47,660 bases of DNA from Clostridia bacterium (GTDB lineage: Bacteria > Bacillota > Clostridia > Christensenellales > Aristaeellaceae), in contig JAFUCP010000021.1 in NCBI GenBank assembly GCA_017459565.1, positions 1 to 47,660 on the forward strand. Reading direction: 5' to 3'. The notes beneath the pieces are model-generated. The model was not told where the DNA came from. It was given only the letters and a program-made list of their open reading frames with translations, and did no database searches. Of this stretch, positions 14,414-18,779 are shown one piece after another. Made by a program: the position numbers and the translations under genes. Each line of letters begins with the position of its first letter. The stretch's first letter is position 1.

Positions 14414-14451
14414 TTTCGTGCATCAATTGCGCGGTTTTGGGAGAAATGGCC

Positions 14452-14479
14452 TTGCGCCTGCCGGAAATGGTGCTATAAT
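14452..14479 (+). promoter_or_regulatory. Promoter of the riboswitch-controlled operon
   Basis: TTGCGC (14452-14457), 16-bp spacer, TATAAT (14474-14479), about ten bases before the aptamer. Confidence 0.7.
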
Positions 14480-14487
14480 GATGCCAA

Positions 14488-14589
14488 TCAGTACGAGGGA
14501 GTAGCCGAACGCCCGTAAAGTCGGGCGGGTCTGAAACCGTCAGTACGGTGCGCCAGCGCCCGGAGCAGATGAAACGGCAAGACTCATAT
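14488..14589 (+). ncRNA. yybP-ykoY family (manganese) riboswitch aptamer
   Basis: The segment carries the conserved elements of the family: GGGAGTAGCC at 14498-14507, CCGTCAGTACGG at 14537-14548, and GGCAAGAC at 14576-14583. A closing stem forms between about 14488-14496 and 14581-14589. Members of this class sense Mn2+. The 3' closing strand is also the 5' arm of the downstream terminator, so metal binding should prevent termination, giving an ON switch. Assigned by pattern; a covariance model search would settle it. Confidence 0.88.
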
Positions 14590-14621
14590 TGTGAACCATG
14601 TTCGCGATATGGGTCTTTTTT
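14579..14621 (+). terminator. Riboswitch expression-platform terminator
   Basis: AAGACTCATAT (14579-14589) pairs with ATATGGGTCTT (14607-14617, one G-U), followed by a T-run to 14621. The 5' arm overlaps the aptamer P1 strand, so aptamer and terminator are mutually exclusive. Confidence 0.88.
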
Positions 14622-14658
14622 CATACCCACACCGCGACAGTGACAGGAGGTAATCGTT

Positions 14659-15072
14659 ATGACCCATACCAACATCGATCAGGAGATCCGCGAGGCGCGC
14701 CAGGCCGGCATCCGAGCCCTGAACAGCCTCCGGCAGGCGCAGCGCCACATGGACAGCGCCCGGAGCTGGGGCATCTTCGACATGCTGGGCGGCGGCATGA
14801 TCTCAAGTCTCATCAAGCACTCCAAACTCGACGATGCCCAGCGCTGCGTGGAGCAGGCCCAGGACGATCTGCGGGACTTCTGCCGGGAGCTTGAGGACGT
14901 GGATATGCCCGATGTGCGTATTGACGATCTGCTGACCTTCGCCGACTTCTTCTTCGACGGCTTCCTGGCGGACTTCCTGGTGCAGCAGCGCATCAACGAG
15001 GCCCGCGCCCGGCTGGAGCAGATCTGCCGACAGGTGGAGGAGATACTCTACCGGCTGGGCGAGCGGCTGTAA
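14659..15072 (+). CDS. Uncharacterised helical protein under manganese riboswitch control
   Basis: 137 residues, apparently all helical and cytoplasmic, with heptad-like Leu/Ala spacing at both ends. A central segment WGIFDMLGGGMISSLIKHSK is followed by an acidic stretch and LLTFADFFFDGFLADFLVQ. There is no signal peptide and no known enzymatic motif. I recall similar proteins in other Firmicutes annotated only as hypothetical. AGGAGG stands 9 nt before ATG 14659. As first gene after a yybP-ykoY riboswitch it is expected to be induced by Mn2+, which suggests a role in metal stress, but nothing in the protein proves metal handling. Forms an operon with the next small gene (40-base gap). Confidence 0.85.
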   Translation: MTHTNIDQEIREARQAGIRALNSLRQAQRHMDSARSWGIFDMLGGGMISSLIKHSKLDDAQRCVEQAQDDLRDFCRELEDVDMPDVRIDDLLTFADFFFDGFLADFLVQQRINEARARLEQICRQVEEILYRLGERL

Positions 15073-15112
15073 GCTGACTGCGTTTTTTTCGCATTGCAAA
15101 GGAGATGATACT

Positions 15113-15316
15113 GTGCTGACGCTCATTGTACTGTTTCTCGTATTCCGCATGATGATCCCCTGGCGCCGCTATCGCCCCTGGGGCATGTTCATGGGCGGGC
15201 CGCACATGTGGCGCCGTCCCCCGATGGGAGGCATGTTTATGGGCGGCTTCGGACCTCACGGTCCCCGTGGCTTCGGGCCCGGCGGCCCCCGCGGCTTCGG
15301 CGGCGGACGCTTCTAA
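15113..15316 (+). CDS. Small Met/Gly/Arg-rich membrane peptide
   Basis: 67 residues from GTG 15113, with AAAGGAG 8 nt upstream. The N-terminus MLTLIVLFLVFRMMI is one short hydrophobic segment. The rest is low complexity, rich in Gly, Met, Pro, Arg and Phe (repeats of GGPHMW, GGMFMGGFGPHGPRG type) with two His. Because of its good ribosome binding site and position directly after the riboswitch-controlled gene I read it as a real second gene. Function unknown; the Met and His residues could bind a soft metal but this is speculation. Confidence 0.65.
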   Translation: MLTLIVLFLVFRMMIPWRRYRPWGMFMGGPHMWRRPPMGGMFMGGFGPHGPRGFGPGGPRGFGGGRF

Positions 15317-15491: not shown

Positions 15492-16817
15492 TTACGGCCA
15501 GGCCCTCGGCTGCGGGTTGCCGCAGCTCATCTTCCCCTCCGGGCAGGGTCCAAGGCGGCAGCTTGCCCCATAGCAGCCGAAAAGCTCGGGCAGCTCCTCT
15601 TGCAGCAGCGCCAGCATCCGACCGGCCACGCCGCGAATCTCCCACTGGGCGCGGGCGCAGGTTCGCAGCTTCATGAAGTGGAGCAGCTCCCTGGCGTTCA
15701 TGCTCATCAATATATCCAGCTGGTGGCCGCTCATGGCGAAATAGCCCGCGTCCTGGGCGGACAGGCCCAGCGACAGCGCCCTTTGGGCCGCGTCGGTCTG
15801 CGCCGAAAATGCGCCGCGATAGACGGACTCCGCCGCCGGGTTCGCCCTGACGGAATCCGGCAGGACATACCGCCCTCCGGCCAGCGCCGTCAATACCGGC
15901 GGGATCACGGAGGACTGTATCCTGTGGCGGGCAAAGTGCGTCAGGCAGGCCAGCGATATACCCTTGATCCTGAAGGCATAATTCAGCATTTCAAGCTCCC
16001 TGGGGCGCGCGTCCGTCAGCAGGGATTTGACGCGCTCCGGCGTCAGACCCTCCCCCGCCCCGAACCGCCCGGAAAAGGCCAGCGCGGCGCTCAAAAGGCC
16101 CCTGGCATCCGCCGGAGCGGAGATCAGCTCCGCATCGCCCACGCCCTCCCACGGCGTTTTGAGCCCGGTGGGAAGCGGCATAGGGGCGCTGATCGCGCGG
16201 CGGTGCAGCTCCCCGTCGATCACGCCGGGATAGCGCGCGTCAAACTGCGTCTTCAGCTGCGTGCCCAGGCTTTCTATTTCACCGAAGCCCGCGCCGCGCC
16301 CCTGGAGCATGGCGCAGACGAGGGCGATCAGCTCCCGGGCGTTCACGGTCATAAAGAAGTTGCTGCGCAGGCTGTAGGGCAACACGAATCGGGCGTCCTC
16401 CTTGGGAACGCCCAGCGCCATGAGCTTTTCATAGTCGCCAAAGCGGTCGGCCATCGTTTGGTCGTAAAGCTCCGCCAGTTCGCCCTCAAGGTTCGCCGGG
16501 CGGACGCAGCCCGCGTTGGAAAAATCCACATAGCGGCGGGACTTGACGGTGTAGGAGGCCAGGCGCGCCTCTATGACGAACTGCTCCACCAGCACGGAGA
16601 CGTTGTCGAAGGCCACGCCGAAGGTCTGATGCTCTATGACGGACTTATGCCCGGAGGAAAGCACCTTGTCGATCAGCTTCAGGTCCCTTTCGTCCCCGAG
16701 ACTGCGCTCAAAGATCTCCATGGCCGTGCCCTGCTGGGTGGATATGCGCGCGGAGGACGCGGCGACGCGCAGCGCGTCCCGGTTCTCCACGACAATGATG
16801 GCTCTGCTGTTGTTCAC
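15492..16817 (-). CDS. thyX: Double-domain FAD-dependent thymidylate synthase (ThyX)
   Basis: 441 residues, about twice a standard ThyX. Domain 1 (about 1-215) has GHKSVIEH, then IEARLASYTVKSRRY at 82-96 where ThyX has its RHR...RY motif, and LPYSLRSNFFMTVNARELI. Domain 2 (about 230-441) has FARHRIQSS with RHR at 297-299, GGRYVLP, and MNARELLHFMKLR, the FAD/dUMP-binding pattern. ThyX makes dTMP from dUMP with FAD, NADPH and methylenetetrahydrofolate. The C-terminus has four Cys (415, 420, 425, 432) that could bind a metal. GTG start at 16817 with a G-rich site upstream. Monocistronic. The normal enzyme is a homotetramer, so two fused domains may act as a half-tetramer. Confidence 0.88.
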   Translation of the reverse strand: MNNSRAIIVVENRDALRVAASSARISTQQGTAMEIFERSLGDERDLKLIDKVLSSGHKSVIEHQTFGVAFDNVSVLVEQFVIEARLASYTVKSRRYVDFSNAGCVRPANLEGELAELYDQTMADRFGDYEKLMALGVPKEDARFVLPYSLRSNFFMTVNARELIALVCAMLQGRGAGFGEIESLGTQLKTQFDARYPGVIDGELHRRAISAPMPLPTGLKTPWEGVGDAELISAPADARGLLSAALAFSGRFGAGEGLTPERVKSLLTDARPRELEMLNYAFRIKGISLACLTHFARHRIQSSVIPPVLTALAGGRYVLPDSVRANPAAESVYRGAFSAQTDAAQRALSLGLSAQDAGYFAMSGHQLDILMSMNARELLHFMKLRTCARAQWEIRGVAGRMLALLQEELPELFGCYGASCRLGPCPEGKMSCGNPQPRAWP

Positions 16818-16900: not shown

Positions 16901-18463
16901 TTATTTTACCTCTTCCCGCTTGCCGCCCAGGGCGTCTCTGGCCGTGACGACCACCTTTCGGTTGTAGCCCTCGAAGGCAAAATCCACCAGCTTTTTGTCC
17001 GGCTTAGGCGTCACGAGGCTGACCACCGGCACGATCACCAGACCTGCCAGCATCGCAAACGCGCCGCAGTTGATGGGCGACTGGAGGAACGCGGGGAAAG
17101 CGCCCTTGAAGAACATGTTCGCCACCATGATGCCCGCGCCGAAGATCATGCTGCACCAGGCGGAGGCGCAGGATGCCTTCTTCATGTACAGGCCATACAT
17201 GAACGGGGCCAGGAACGCGCCCGCCAGCGCACCCCAGGAAATGCCCATGAGCTGGGCGATGAAATTCACCGTCGTGCTGTACTGTATGATGGCGATGACG
17301 ACGGAGATGAGGATGAACACCACGATCAGCAGTCGCATGGTCATGACCTGCTTCTTCTCATCCATATCCTTGACGATGTTGTCCTTGAGGAAGTCCAGCG
17401 TCAGCGTGGAGCTTGAGGCCAGCACCAGCGAGGACAGCGTGGACATGGAGGCGGAAAGCACCAGGATCACGATGACGCCCAGCAGCAGCGGAGAGAGACC
17501 CTCCAGCATTGTGGGCACAATGGAATCGTAGCCTGCGGCGGGAACGCCCGTCCCGGCAGGATCGATGGCCGAGGTGAACAGCCGCCCGAAGCCGCCCAGG
17601 AAGTAGCAGCCGCCCGCCACGATCACCGCGAAAACAGTGGAGATGATCGTTCCCTTGGAGATGGCGTTTTCAGACTTGATGGCATAGAACTTCTGCACCA
17701 TCTGGGGCAGGCCCCAGGTGCCCAGAGAGGTCAATATGACCACGCCCAGCAGGTTCAGCGGGTCCGGGCCTAAGAACGAGGCAAAAGCGCCGTTCATGCC
17801 CTCGCCGGGAACCTGGGCGAGGCCCTTGTAGGCCTCCATGAAGCCGCCGTTGACCTTCAGCACCGCCGCGACCACGGCGATGATGCCGAAGATCATGATA
17901 ATGCCCTGTATGAAGTCGTTGATGGCGGTGGCCATGTAGCCGCCGGCAATGACGTACACGCCGGTCAGCACCGCCATCATGATGATGCACACCGTGTAAT
18001 CGATGTTAAAGGCCATGCCGAACAGGCGGGACAGGCCGTTGTACAGCGAGGCCGTGTAGGGAATCAGGAAGATGAATATGATGACGGATGCGCCGATCTT
18101 CAGGGCGTTGCTGTTATAGCGCTTGCCCAGGAATTCCGGCATGGTGGCGCTTTGCAGCTGCTGCGTCATGACGCGGGTGCGGCGTCCAAGCACCACCCAG
18201 GCCATCAAAGAGCCGATGAAGGCATTGCCCAGGCCGATCCATGTGGAGGCCAGGCCGAAACGCCAGCCGAATTGGCCCGCATAACCCACGAAAATGACCG
18301 CGGAGAAATACGAGGTTCCGTAGGCAAAGGCCGTCAGCCAGGGACCGACGGAGCGCCCGCCCAGTACAAAGCCGTCCACGTTTGTCGCGTGCTTGCGGCT
18401 GTAGAAGCCGACGCCGACCATGATGCCGAAGAAAACCACCAGCATGAGAATCTTGATGAACAC
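16901..18463 (-). CDS. Sodium:solute symporter (SSS/PutP-like family), T-box controlled
   Basis: 520 residues with about 13 predicted membrane helices. The N-terminus VVFFGIMVGVGFYSRKHATN, then VDGFVLGGRSVGPWLTAFAYGTSYFSAVIF and WRFGLASTWIGLGNAF, are typical of the sodium/solute symporter family (proline, pantothenate and related carriers). Start chosen at GTG 18463 because AAGGAGGA (18471-18478) lies 7 nt upstream; the longer frame reads through the T-box terminator. A T-box leader immediately upstream shows that the gene answers to an uncharged tRNA, so the cargo is probably an amino acid or its precursor. Confidence 0.9.
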   Translation of the reverse strand: MFIKILMLVVFFGIMVGVGFYSRKHATNVDGFVLGGRSVGPWLTAFAYGTSYFSAVIFVGYAGQFGWRFGLASTWIGLGNAFIGSLMAWVVLGRRTRVMTQQLQSATMPEFLGKRYNSNALKIGASVIIFIFLIPYTASLYNGLSRLFGMAFNIDYTVCIIMMAVLTGVYVIAGGYMATAINDFIQGIIMIFGIIAVVAAVLKVNGGFMEAYKGLAQVPGEGMNGAFASFLGPDPLNLLGVVILTSLGTWGLPQMVQKFYAIKSENAISKGTIISTVFAVIVAGGCYFLGGFGRLFTSAIDPAGTGVPAAGYDSIVPTMLEGLSPLLLGVIVILVLSASMSTLSSLVLASSSTLTLDFLKDNIVKDMDEKKQVMTMRLLIVVFILISVVIAIIQYSTTVNFIAQLMGISWGALAGAFLAPFMYGLYMKKASCASAWCSMIFGAGIMVANMFFKGAFPAFLQSPINCGAFAMLAGLVIVPVVSLVTPKPDKKLVDFAFEGYNRKVVVTARDALGGKREEVK

Positions 18464-18499
18464 AGCAGATTCCTCCTTTGTCCTTTGTCGCGGAGGCGC

Positions 18500-18532
18500 A
18501 AAAAACCGCCCTCCGCATGTCGCAGAGGGCGG
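18500..18532 (-). terminator. T-box terminator
   Basis: Minus strand stem CCGCCCTC / GAGGGCGG (plus 18525-18532 and 18506-18513) followed by six T (18500-18505). It competes with the antiterminator that contains the T-box sequence. Confidence 0.92.
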
Positions 18533-18779
18533 ATCGTTCCGCGGTACCACCTCTATTCGGCGCGTTCTCACGAAGCGCGCCCTCGTCGGGTGCGGACAGA
18601 TGCGTCCAAACCCTATCGCTGTAACGGGCGAACCCGTCGCCGCTTAATCGGGCATCCCCTTTCAGCGCGCGGCTACCGGAATGTAATTCAATCGGACGCC
18701 GTATGCCGTCTCGCACCCTCCGACGGTTCTCTGAATACGTTATCGCCCATCTACTTGTTCCCGGTCACTGCCTTTAACG
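18500..18779 (-). ncRNA. T-box leader (tRNA-sensing riboswitch)
   Basis: On the minus strand the T-box core AGGTGGTACCGCGG occupies 18539-18552. Stem I is recognisable: base ACCGG...CCGGT, AGTAGA on the 5' side of the specifier loop, CGTAT/ATACG with CAGAGA bulge, and distal hairpin CCGTC/GACGG. The specifier loop 3' strand reads GAATTACA just before TTCC; TAC (Tyr) followed by a purine is the best fit, with ATT (Ile) the alternative. The TGGT bulge fits a tRNA with discriminator A, which suits both. Confidence 0.92.

Follow-up and report, generated by a model that had tools for sequence, protein, structure and literature searches.

A predicted manganese riboswitch of the yybP-ykoY class upstream of two uncharacterised small genes in a Clostridia bacterium

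Results

Layout of the locus

The stretch of DNA analysed here (the window, 47,660 nucleotides) comes from a Clostridia bacterium. Between positions 14452 and 15316, a likely promoter, a leader with the core of a yybP-ykoY (Mn2+) riboswitch and two small open reading frames, ORF1 and ORF2, follow one another on the plus strand:

14452-14479 (+): likely promoter, picked by eye; TTGCGC at 14452-14457, a 16-nt spacer and TATAAT at 14474-14479
14491-14617 (+): leader, with yybP-ykoY (Mn2+) riboswitch core
14491-14590 (+): predicted Mn2+ riboswitch aptamer of yybP-ykoY type, a three-way junction without P4, as drawn from the leader alignment A1, its covariation and the covariance model R1
14497-14506, 14538-14549 and 14576-14583 (+): conserved blocks GGGAGTAGCC, CCGTCAGTACGG and GGCAAGAC
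14493-14497 (+): 5' strand of the switch helix P1.1, pairing with 14583-14587, with one C.A mismatch in the window
14497-14506 (+): 5' side of L1, GGGAGTAGCC; all 32 rows of A1 have GGGAGTAGC, as the search pattern demanded
14504-14507 (+): 5' strand of P1.2, GCCG, pairing with CGGC at 14575-14578
14510-14527 (+): P2 hairpin, with two-sided changes in three of its four pairs
14529-14570 (+): P3 and loop L3; P3a is 14529-14534/14565-14570, P3b is 14547-14550/14557-14560
14540-14546 (+): L3, UCAGUAC, in which A14542 corresponds to A41 of L. lactis (in UCAAUUC), the adenosine in contact with Mn2+
14579-14617 (+): intrinsic terminator, 18 pairs, 3-base loop and T run
14659-15072 (+): ORF1, 137 aa, with AGGAGG upstream as a good ribosome-binding site
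15113-15316 (+): ORF2, 67 aa, GTG start, with AAAGGAG upstream as a good ribosome-binding site

The predicted promoter, which was unlisted by a promoter scan of the window, likely places the transcription start just 5' of the aptamer; TATAAT or TATATT was also seen by eye directly upstream of many relatives' leaders. Further along, on the minus strand, a T-box leader (18522-18777, 103.9 bits) lies at the start of an open reading frame (16901-18571) that looks by eye like a sodium/solute symporter, and a 441-aa open reading frame (15492-16817) may encode a ThyX-type thymidylate synthase, its length being enough for two domain copies.

Structure and conservation of the aptamer

Leaders of ORF1 homologues were collected with a pattern consisting of GGGAGTAGC followed, at a set distance, by (G/A)C(A/G)AGAC(T/C). 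The pattern gave 42 places, of which 32, all upstream of ORF1 homologues, were aligned (alignment A1); left out were two leaders with long inserts (L029, L030), L060, whose letters are identical to those of L057, and L081-L084, L087, L088 and L092, whose letters are identical to those of the window, L001-L004, L006 and L024. The constancy of L1 in A1 is partly built in by the pattern, while L3 and the helices lie outside it.

The three conserved blocks named in the original prediction are all present in the window. A three-way junction made of P1.1, P1.2, P2, P3a and P3b is paired in 95.5% of the cells of A1, compared with 33-45% in slid controls, and two-sided changes occur in 15 of 24 pairs; none of 500 shuffles reached any of the five measures used. 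The changes fall in 14 of the 19 pairs of P1.2, P2, P3a and P3b (nine of 11 in P3a and P3b together) and in one of the five pairs of P1.1 (columns 3-7 with 99-103), which is the least variable helix; over the 32 rows 91.9% of its cells are paired, and one of its pairs is open in 12 rows. RNAalifold applied to A1 recovered P1.2, P2, P3a and P3b unaided; instead of P1.1 it predicted pairing between columns 9-12 and 98-101. The minimum-free-energy fold of positions 14485-14625 is the terminator and not the aptamer (z -4.6, none of 200 shuffles equally stable), and the aptamer therefore rests on comparative evidence.

In the yybP-ykoY reference RNAs, L1 has GGGAGUAG opposite CAAGAC, as in the window. 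All 32 rows of A1 show the same arrangement, GGGAGUAG opposite (C)AAGAC, one position being either A or G; the window's case is the only one independent of the search pattern. The counterpart of the Mn-contacting adenosine, at a position left free by the pattern, is A in all 32 rows; it stands in UCA (L3 with CGUCA) in 29 rows and in ACA (CGACA) in three. According to the available text of PMC6754395, the reference forms of L3 are UCA41AU43UC in L. lactis and ACA48U49ACU52 in X. oryzae, and N7 of this adenosine touches Mn2+. The equivalence of A14542 and A41 is based on these reference forms, as given in the accessible parts of PMC6754395 and PMC9190785.

Overlap of the aptamer with the terminator

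The strand that closes the aptamer was predicted to be shared with the terminator, and this is so: the 3' strand of P1.1 (14583-14587) lies inside the 5' arm of the terminator. P1.1 and the terminator are therefore mutually exclusive. A terminator hairpin with a T run that starts at the (A/G)AGAC of the aptamer was found in all 32 leaders (the end of the hairpin was chosen for best energy), and in each of them P1.1 is exclusive with this expression platform.

In the parts of PMC6754395 and PMC9190785 available to us, Mn2+ stabilises P1.1 of this class of riboswitch and termination is thereby prevented. A review labels the yybP-ykoY class as OFF switches (PMC11477304, in the text accessible), against both of these papers. 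The two papers, together with the anatomy of the window leader, point to the ON direction.

Class membership and the Rfam model

The Rfam yybP-ykoY model, which had been proposed as a check, failed to detect the leader. RF00080 gave no match in the window at its gathering score (cut-off 45 bits), none in positions 14440-14680 even at E<=10, and none across the whole genome of the organism at E<=0.001; by the Rfam definition, with its 45-bit cut-off, the leader is thus not a member of RF00080. The best of three Rfam matches in 14440-14680 at E<=10 was SSRC10, with 18.1 bits against a cut-off of 56. For RF00080, the lack of a significant covariance hit, named in the original prediction as an outcome that would refute it, did therefore occur. 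This failure is not decisive, since the model misses sister leaders too (17 loci tried at the gathering score and seven at E<=1), and a model built from the family finds these as well as known Mn2+ targets.

The latter model, R1, is a covariance model made from the 32 leaders of A1. It scores the window aptamer, which belonged to its training set, at 82.7 bits (E 7e-19), and this is its one match in the organism's own genome at E<=1. Run over 151 genomes of the order, RF00080 gave matches in 16 (E<=0.001), all of them below the cut-off. At 13 of the 16 RF00080-found loci R1 matched in the same place at E<=1 (at 12 of them at E<=0.01), and at three (L094, L104, L107) it gave no match at E<=1. 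In 391 genomes of the class, R1 matched 61 at E<=0.01. When RF00080 was run at E<=1 on 20 of the R1-found class loci it saw one, with 24.1 bits, and missed 19; the present Rfam model is therefore the weak point.

In the window, the legs P1 and P3 are joined by a junction with P2, and P4 is absent. The leader shares its RNA family with those in front of Mn2+ exporter genes, MntP being the target in eight of the 13 R1-matched RF00080 loci. The original identification as a Mn2+ riboswitch is supported by the core, the covariation, the reciprocal model matches and the transporter genes behind other copies. We conclude that the leader almost certainly belongs to the yybP-ykoY class, and that Mn2+ is very probably its ligand.

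Genes behind other copies of the riboswitch

Target genes were assigned by the best tblastn match on the same strand, and representatives were checked in Pfam. Behind the 16 RF00080-found loci lie MntP (10), Na/Ca exchangers (two), P-type ATPases (two), OAD_beta (one) and none of these (one); the Pfam check identified the first L094 gene as an exchanger. The 13 loci also matched by R1 have MntP (eight), ATPases (two), Na/Ca exchangers (two) and OAD_beta (one). In 29 new loci of the class, fetched with R1, the targets are Na/Ca exchangers (13), OAD_beta (nine), ATPases (six) and an SPFH protein (one). The organism's own genome has one MntP gene, and the stretch upstream of it is without such a leader.

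A larger sample was taken from the family of Blautia schinkii (genome G549, locus L035). Among 120 genomes, R1 matched 63 places in 45 genomes and a profile of ORF1 matched 44 places in 39 genomes; 33 of the latter are without an adjoining R1 match. In 11 cases a leader and a profile match are adjacent on the same strand, with 77-305 nt between the end of the leader and the profile match. These 11 are the best-scoring of the 63 R1 places, a ranking that is partly built in, as R1 was trained on leaders of the ORF1 family. The other 52 places precede ATPases (22), Na/Ca exchangers (11), OAD_beta (five), HflK-like genes (four), a flotillin (one), MntP (one) and none of these (eight, one of which is a contig end). 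In this sample, the ORF1 family is thus tied with Na/Ca exchangers behind the switch (11 each), after ATPases (22). Ten genomes that bear ORF1 homologues were also searched with R1, which found two or three matches in each of eight and none in two (20 places in total). Thirteen of these places, the operon of L039 included, precede ATPases (five), HflK-like genes (four), flotillins (two), OAD_beta (one) and a Na/Ca exchanger (one).

SPFH genes (HflK-like or flotillin) were seen behind Mn2+ riboswitches in L116, L144, L146, L148, L149, L150, L151, L173, L183, L191, L193 and L215. A Mn2+ riboswitch stands before OAD_beta, the beta subunit of a decarboxylase sodium pump, in nine of the 29 class loci (L111, L113, L114, L120, L121, L124, L127, L136, L137) and in L145; we know of no reason for Mn2+ control of this gene. 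In three of these loci the Rfam family V_AS7 gave matches of 45-57 bits against a cut-off of 90 (L111, 1154-1322; L114, 1155-1323; L121, 2746-2914, minus strand). Rarer genes behind R1 matches (L179, L180, L181, L196, L213, L221, L222) look by eye like PerM-like, phosphate-cotransporter-like, CNNM/CorC-like and ArsB/NhaD-like membrane proteins, that of L196 being without a name.

The ORF1 family

Both genes had been described as uncharacterised, and they remain so: neither has a Pfam family above cut-off, and neither has one in NCBIfam. PspA is absent from the six Pfam families listed for ORF1 at E<=10, as well as from the Pfam matches listed (25 of 78 families) for 64 aligned members, namely the window and 63 of 76 non-identical homologues (alignment A2). 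Eight acidic residues (E9, E12, D41, E77, D80, D96, D100, D105) are invariant in these 64 members, and H54 is kept in 63. The first gene product had been taken to be helical; its AlphaFold2 model (pLDDT 80.5, pTM 0.74) is indeed all-helical, with four predicted helices (3-43, 48-80, 88-100, 105-136). The matches of this model are generic helical bundles, and the predicted fold says nothing on function.

Searching one genome per species turned up 256 ORF1 relatives, and the comparison of loci used the 80 best. The leader is found in 31 of these 80 loci, at most 400 nt upstream of the homologue in 30 of them and about 2.2 kb upstream in L039, so it is not the case that the homologues are never near a metal-responsive element. 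Recurrence upstream of ORF1 homologues with strong covariation argues that the leader is non-random. At the remaining 49 loci R1 finds no leader at E<=1, three of them (L008, L016, L021) holding less than 200 nt upstream and being unjudgeable. As the leader is missing at many homologue loci, many species use ORF1 without such control. Of 25 genomes of the window's genus, counting that of the window, 12 have the protein, and all of the 16 other genomes searched in the order lack it; the leader stands at ten of the 12 genus loci, L085 and L086 being without it.

In proteins of 295-364 aa (L152-L162), the ORF1-family domain was seen by eye at the C-terminus; the part before it is a coiled coil in most, with an Asn/Gly-rich stretch in L152. 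One further match to the family (G649:C360:4295-4696) has two in-frame stops and is perhaps a decayed copy.

ORF2, YccF and other neighbours

ORF2 has one N-terminal hydrophobic stretch and a tail rich in Met, Gly, Pro, Arg and Trp; it matches no Pfam family at E<=10, PF03733 included. By a composition filter, a counterpart of ORF2 lies downstream of ORF1 in eight of the 12 genus loci, the window included, and the filter found none in L084, L085, L087 and L092. This counterpart, a short open reading frame whose product has a single hydrophobic stretch and a tail rich in Met, Gly and Trp, occupies in the genus the place held elsewhere by YccF, of which the organism's own genome has none at E<=0.001.

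Among the 31 loci that have the leader, 17 have YccF at most 1 kb downstream of the ORF1 homologue; among the 49 leaderless ones, three do (Fisher p 1.5e-6, with relatedness ignored). The YccF of L008, at a distance of 2.3 kb, is outside this count. Pfam confirmed the identity of one YccF (PF03733, E 1.4e-40). In Lachnospiraceae and their kin, the leader often precedes an ORF1 homologue and YccF, with a flotillin in front once: the row in L039/L151 is leader, flotillin, ORF1 homologue, YccF. In L009, PspC adjoins the ORF1 homologue upstream. Flotillin and PspC each adjoin the homologue once among the 80 loci. Leaderless homologues in L010, L013, L044, L072 and L078 adjoin another small hydrophobic protein, for which no Pfam family was found in L013.

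Discussion

The anatomy of the leader argues for antitermination. We infer from the riboswitch class that the window leader binds Mn2+ and acts as an ON switch. Without Mn2+, the 3' strand of the aptamer, from AAGAC on, would fold into the terminator, and transcription would end near position 14620. At excess Mn2+, L1 and L3 would dock around the metal and hold P1.1 (14493-14497/14583-14587); the terminator would be blocked and ORF1 and ORF2 would be transcribed.

Two other accounts of the leader were weighed against a Mn2+ riboswitch. The absence of an RF00080 match in the Rfam scan and a best RNAfold structure that is not the aptamer would suit an ordinary terminator leader that carries GGGAGTAG and CGTCA by chance, but such a look-alike, of negligible probability in our view, is ruled out by covariation over 32 leaders that none of 500 shuffles reproduced and by the reciprocal matches of R1 at RF00080 loci. 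It is improbable, if less so, that the leader responds to a different divalent ion, or to Mn2+ plus pH, and that ORF1 and ORF2 answer that stress. RF00080 misses the leader, none of the 80 loci has ORF1 next to MntP, a Na/Ca exchanger, a cation ATPase or OAD_beta, and the class also binds Co2+, Cd2+ and Ni2+ (PMC11477304, in the text available), all of which would fit another ligand; against it, the L3 sequences, UCA in 29 leaders and ACA in three, are the forms of L. lactis and X. oryzae, and R1 also finds the leaders of MntP, Na/Ca exchangers and ATPases.

As to the genes, we propose that ORF1, a helical and probably cytoplasmic protein, has a small partner in the membrane, namely ORF2 in the window and YccF in many relatives. 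When Mn2+ is in excess, the two would serve to protect the membrane or control its quality, beside the exporters and SPFH proteins that the switch also governs. This role in membrane maintenance is suggested by the neighbours of ORF1 homologues (YccF, flotillin, PspC), together with papers that tie Mn2+ to membrane protein quality control; we put it forward tentatively, and it ranks first among several functional readings. Second, and unlikely, is a function of ORF1 as a Mn2+ buffer or metallochaperone in the cytosol, with a four-helix bundle that binds metal, and not as a membrane-maintenance factor. The eight invariant acidic residues, H54 and the all-helical model agree with this, and Mn2+ control suits a small soluble protein. 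However, H54 is the sole conserved His and has no conserved acidic residue three before it, so the ExxH pair of diiron bundles is missing; homologues recurrently adjoin membrane proteins (YccF, small transmembrane proteins, PspC), and the leader is absent at 49 of 80 loci. More unlikely still is that ORF1 and its partner directly regulate Mn2+ or Mg2+ transport by joining, as accessory subunits, an exporter or importer whose gene lies elsewhere. The organism's one MntP gene does not have such a leader and its only R1 match controls the ORF1-ORF2 operon, as this would predict, but a search of the 80 loci (flanks of at most 4 kb) for four types of transporter gave two distant matches only: MntP 2.2 kb upstream in L036 and a weak ATPase match 2.6 kb upstream in L047. 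By eye, an ABC transporter gene follows the ORF1 homologue in L042 and L045.

For the RNA and the genes together, we hold with good confidence to an antiterminating ON Mn2+ riboswitch that controls ORF1 and ORF2 as the best explanation, in which protection of the membrane under Mn2+ excess by ORF1 and its partner is the tentative last step. The 'metal-stress module' of the original prediction would be an interpretive label for ORF1-ORF2. A wider conjecture, which we consider doubtful, is that Mn2+ riboswitches of Clostridia run a membrane-maintenance regulon besides exporters, made up of the ORF1 family, YccF or the Met/Gly-rich peptide, HflK-like proteins and flotillin, with ORF1 as a Mn2+-induced, possibly Mn2+-binding adaptor to membrane protein quality control.

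The leader gives a first regulatory handle on the unnamed ORF1 family, which occurs widely among Clostridia of gut and rumen (the one-genome-per-species scan gave 256 relatives), and makes Mn2+ a candidate trigger. The same switch stands before ORF1 relatives in many gut and rumen bacteria, where the standard Rfam model missed it. RF00080 overlooks clostridial Mn2+ riboswitches, the targets of those found by R1 in the class being exchangers, ATPases and similar proteins, and Mn2+ regulons are therefore under-annotated. SPFH membrane proteins are indicated as targets of Mn2+ riboswitches; no report of this was found in titles and abstract starts of open-licence papers, nor was an open-licence paper found on yybP-ykoY together with YccF, the two founding papers of 2015 lying outside the scope of both searches.

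Comparison with known systems

The proposed operon resembles pspA-ydjGHI of B. subtilis, where, in the available text of PMC8581546, a helical protein (PspA) is held at the membrane by two membrane proteins and an SPFH partner (YdjI). In contrast, pspA-ydjGHI is under the control of sigma-W and not Mn2+, and ORF1 has no Pfam match to PspA. The quality control of membrane proteins is tied to Mn2+ in B. subtilis: MgtE is acted on by YqgP and FtsH when Mn2+ is high and Mg2+ low (PMC7231995), and TerC proteins co-purify with FtsH, FloA and FloT (PMC10550928), as far as the accessible parts of these papers go. The available text of PMC10550928 names flotillins and the yybP-ykoY riboswitch, not as target and switch. 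The likeness of these systems to ORF1 is one of theme, with no sequence relation claimed.

At the RNA level, Streptococcus sRNA 10 (SSRC10, RF02617) matches the same RNA weakly (window 14508-14622, 18.1 bits) and also matches R1 places in five of 20 class loci (L111, L114, L119, L123, L127), with up to 45.1 bits. All these matches are under its gathering score of 56, and Rfam files SSRC10 as an sRNA without a clan; SSRC10 itself may be a streptococcal Mn2+ riboswitch. The closest relatives are the yybP-ykoY riboswitches (RF00080) of L. lactis yoaB and X. oryzae yebN. The window leader differs from their crystal forms, as described in the text accessible to us, in having a three-way junction without P4 instead of a four-way junction, RF00080 is blind to it, and its target is no transporter. 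It shares with them L3 UCA with the Mn-contacting A and a P1.1 in common with the terminator. The kind of RNA is known, and the kind of target is new.
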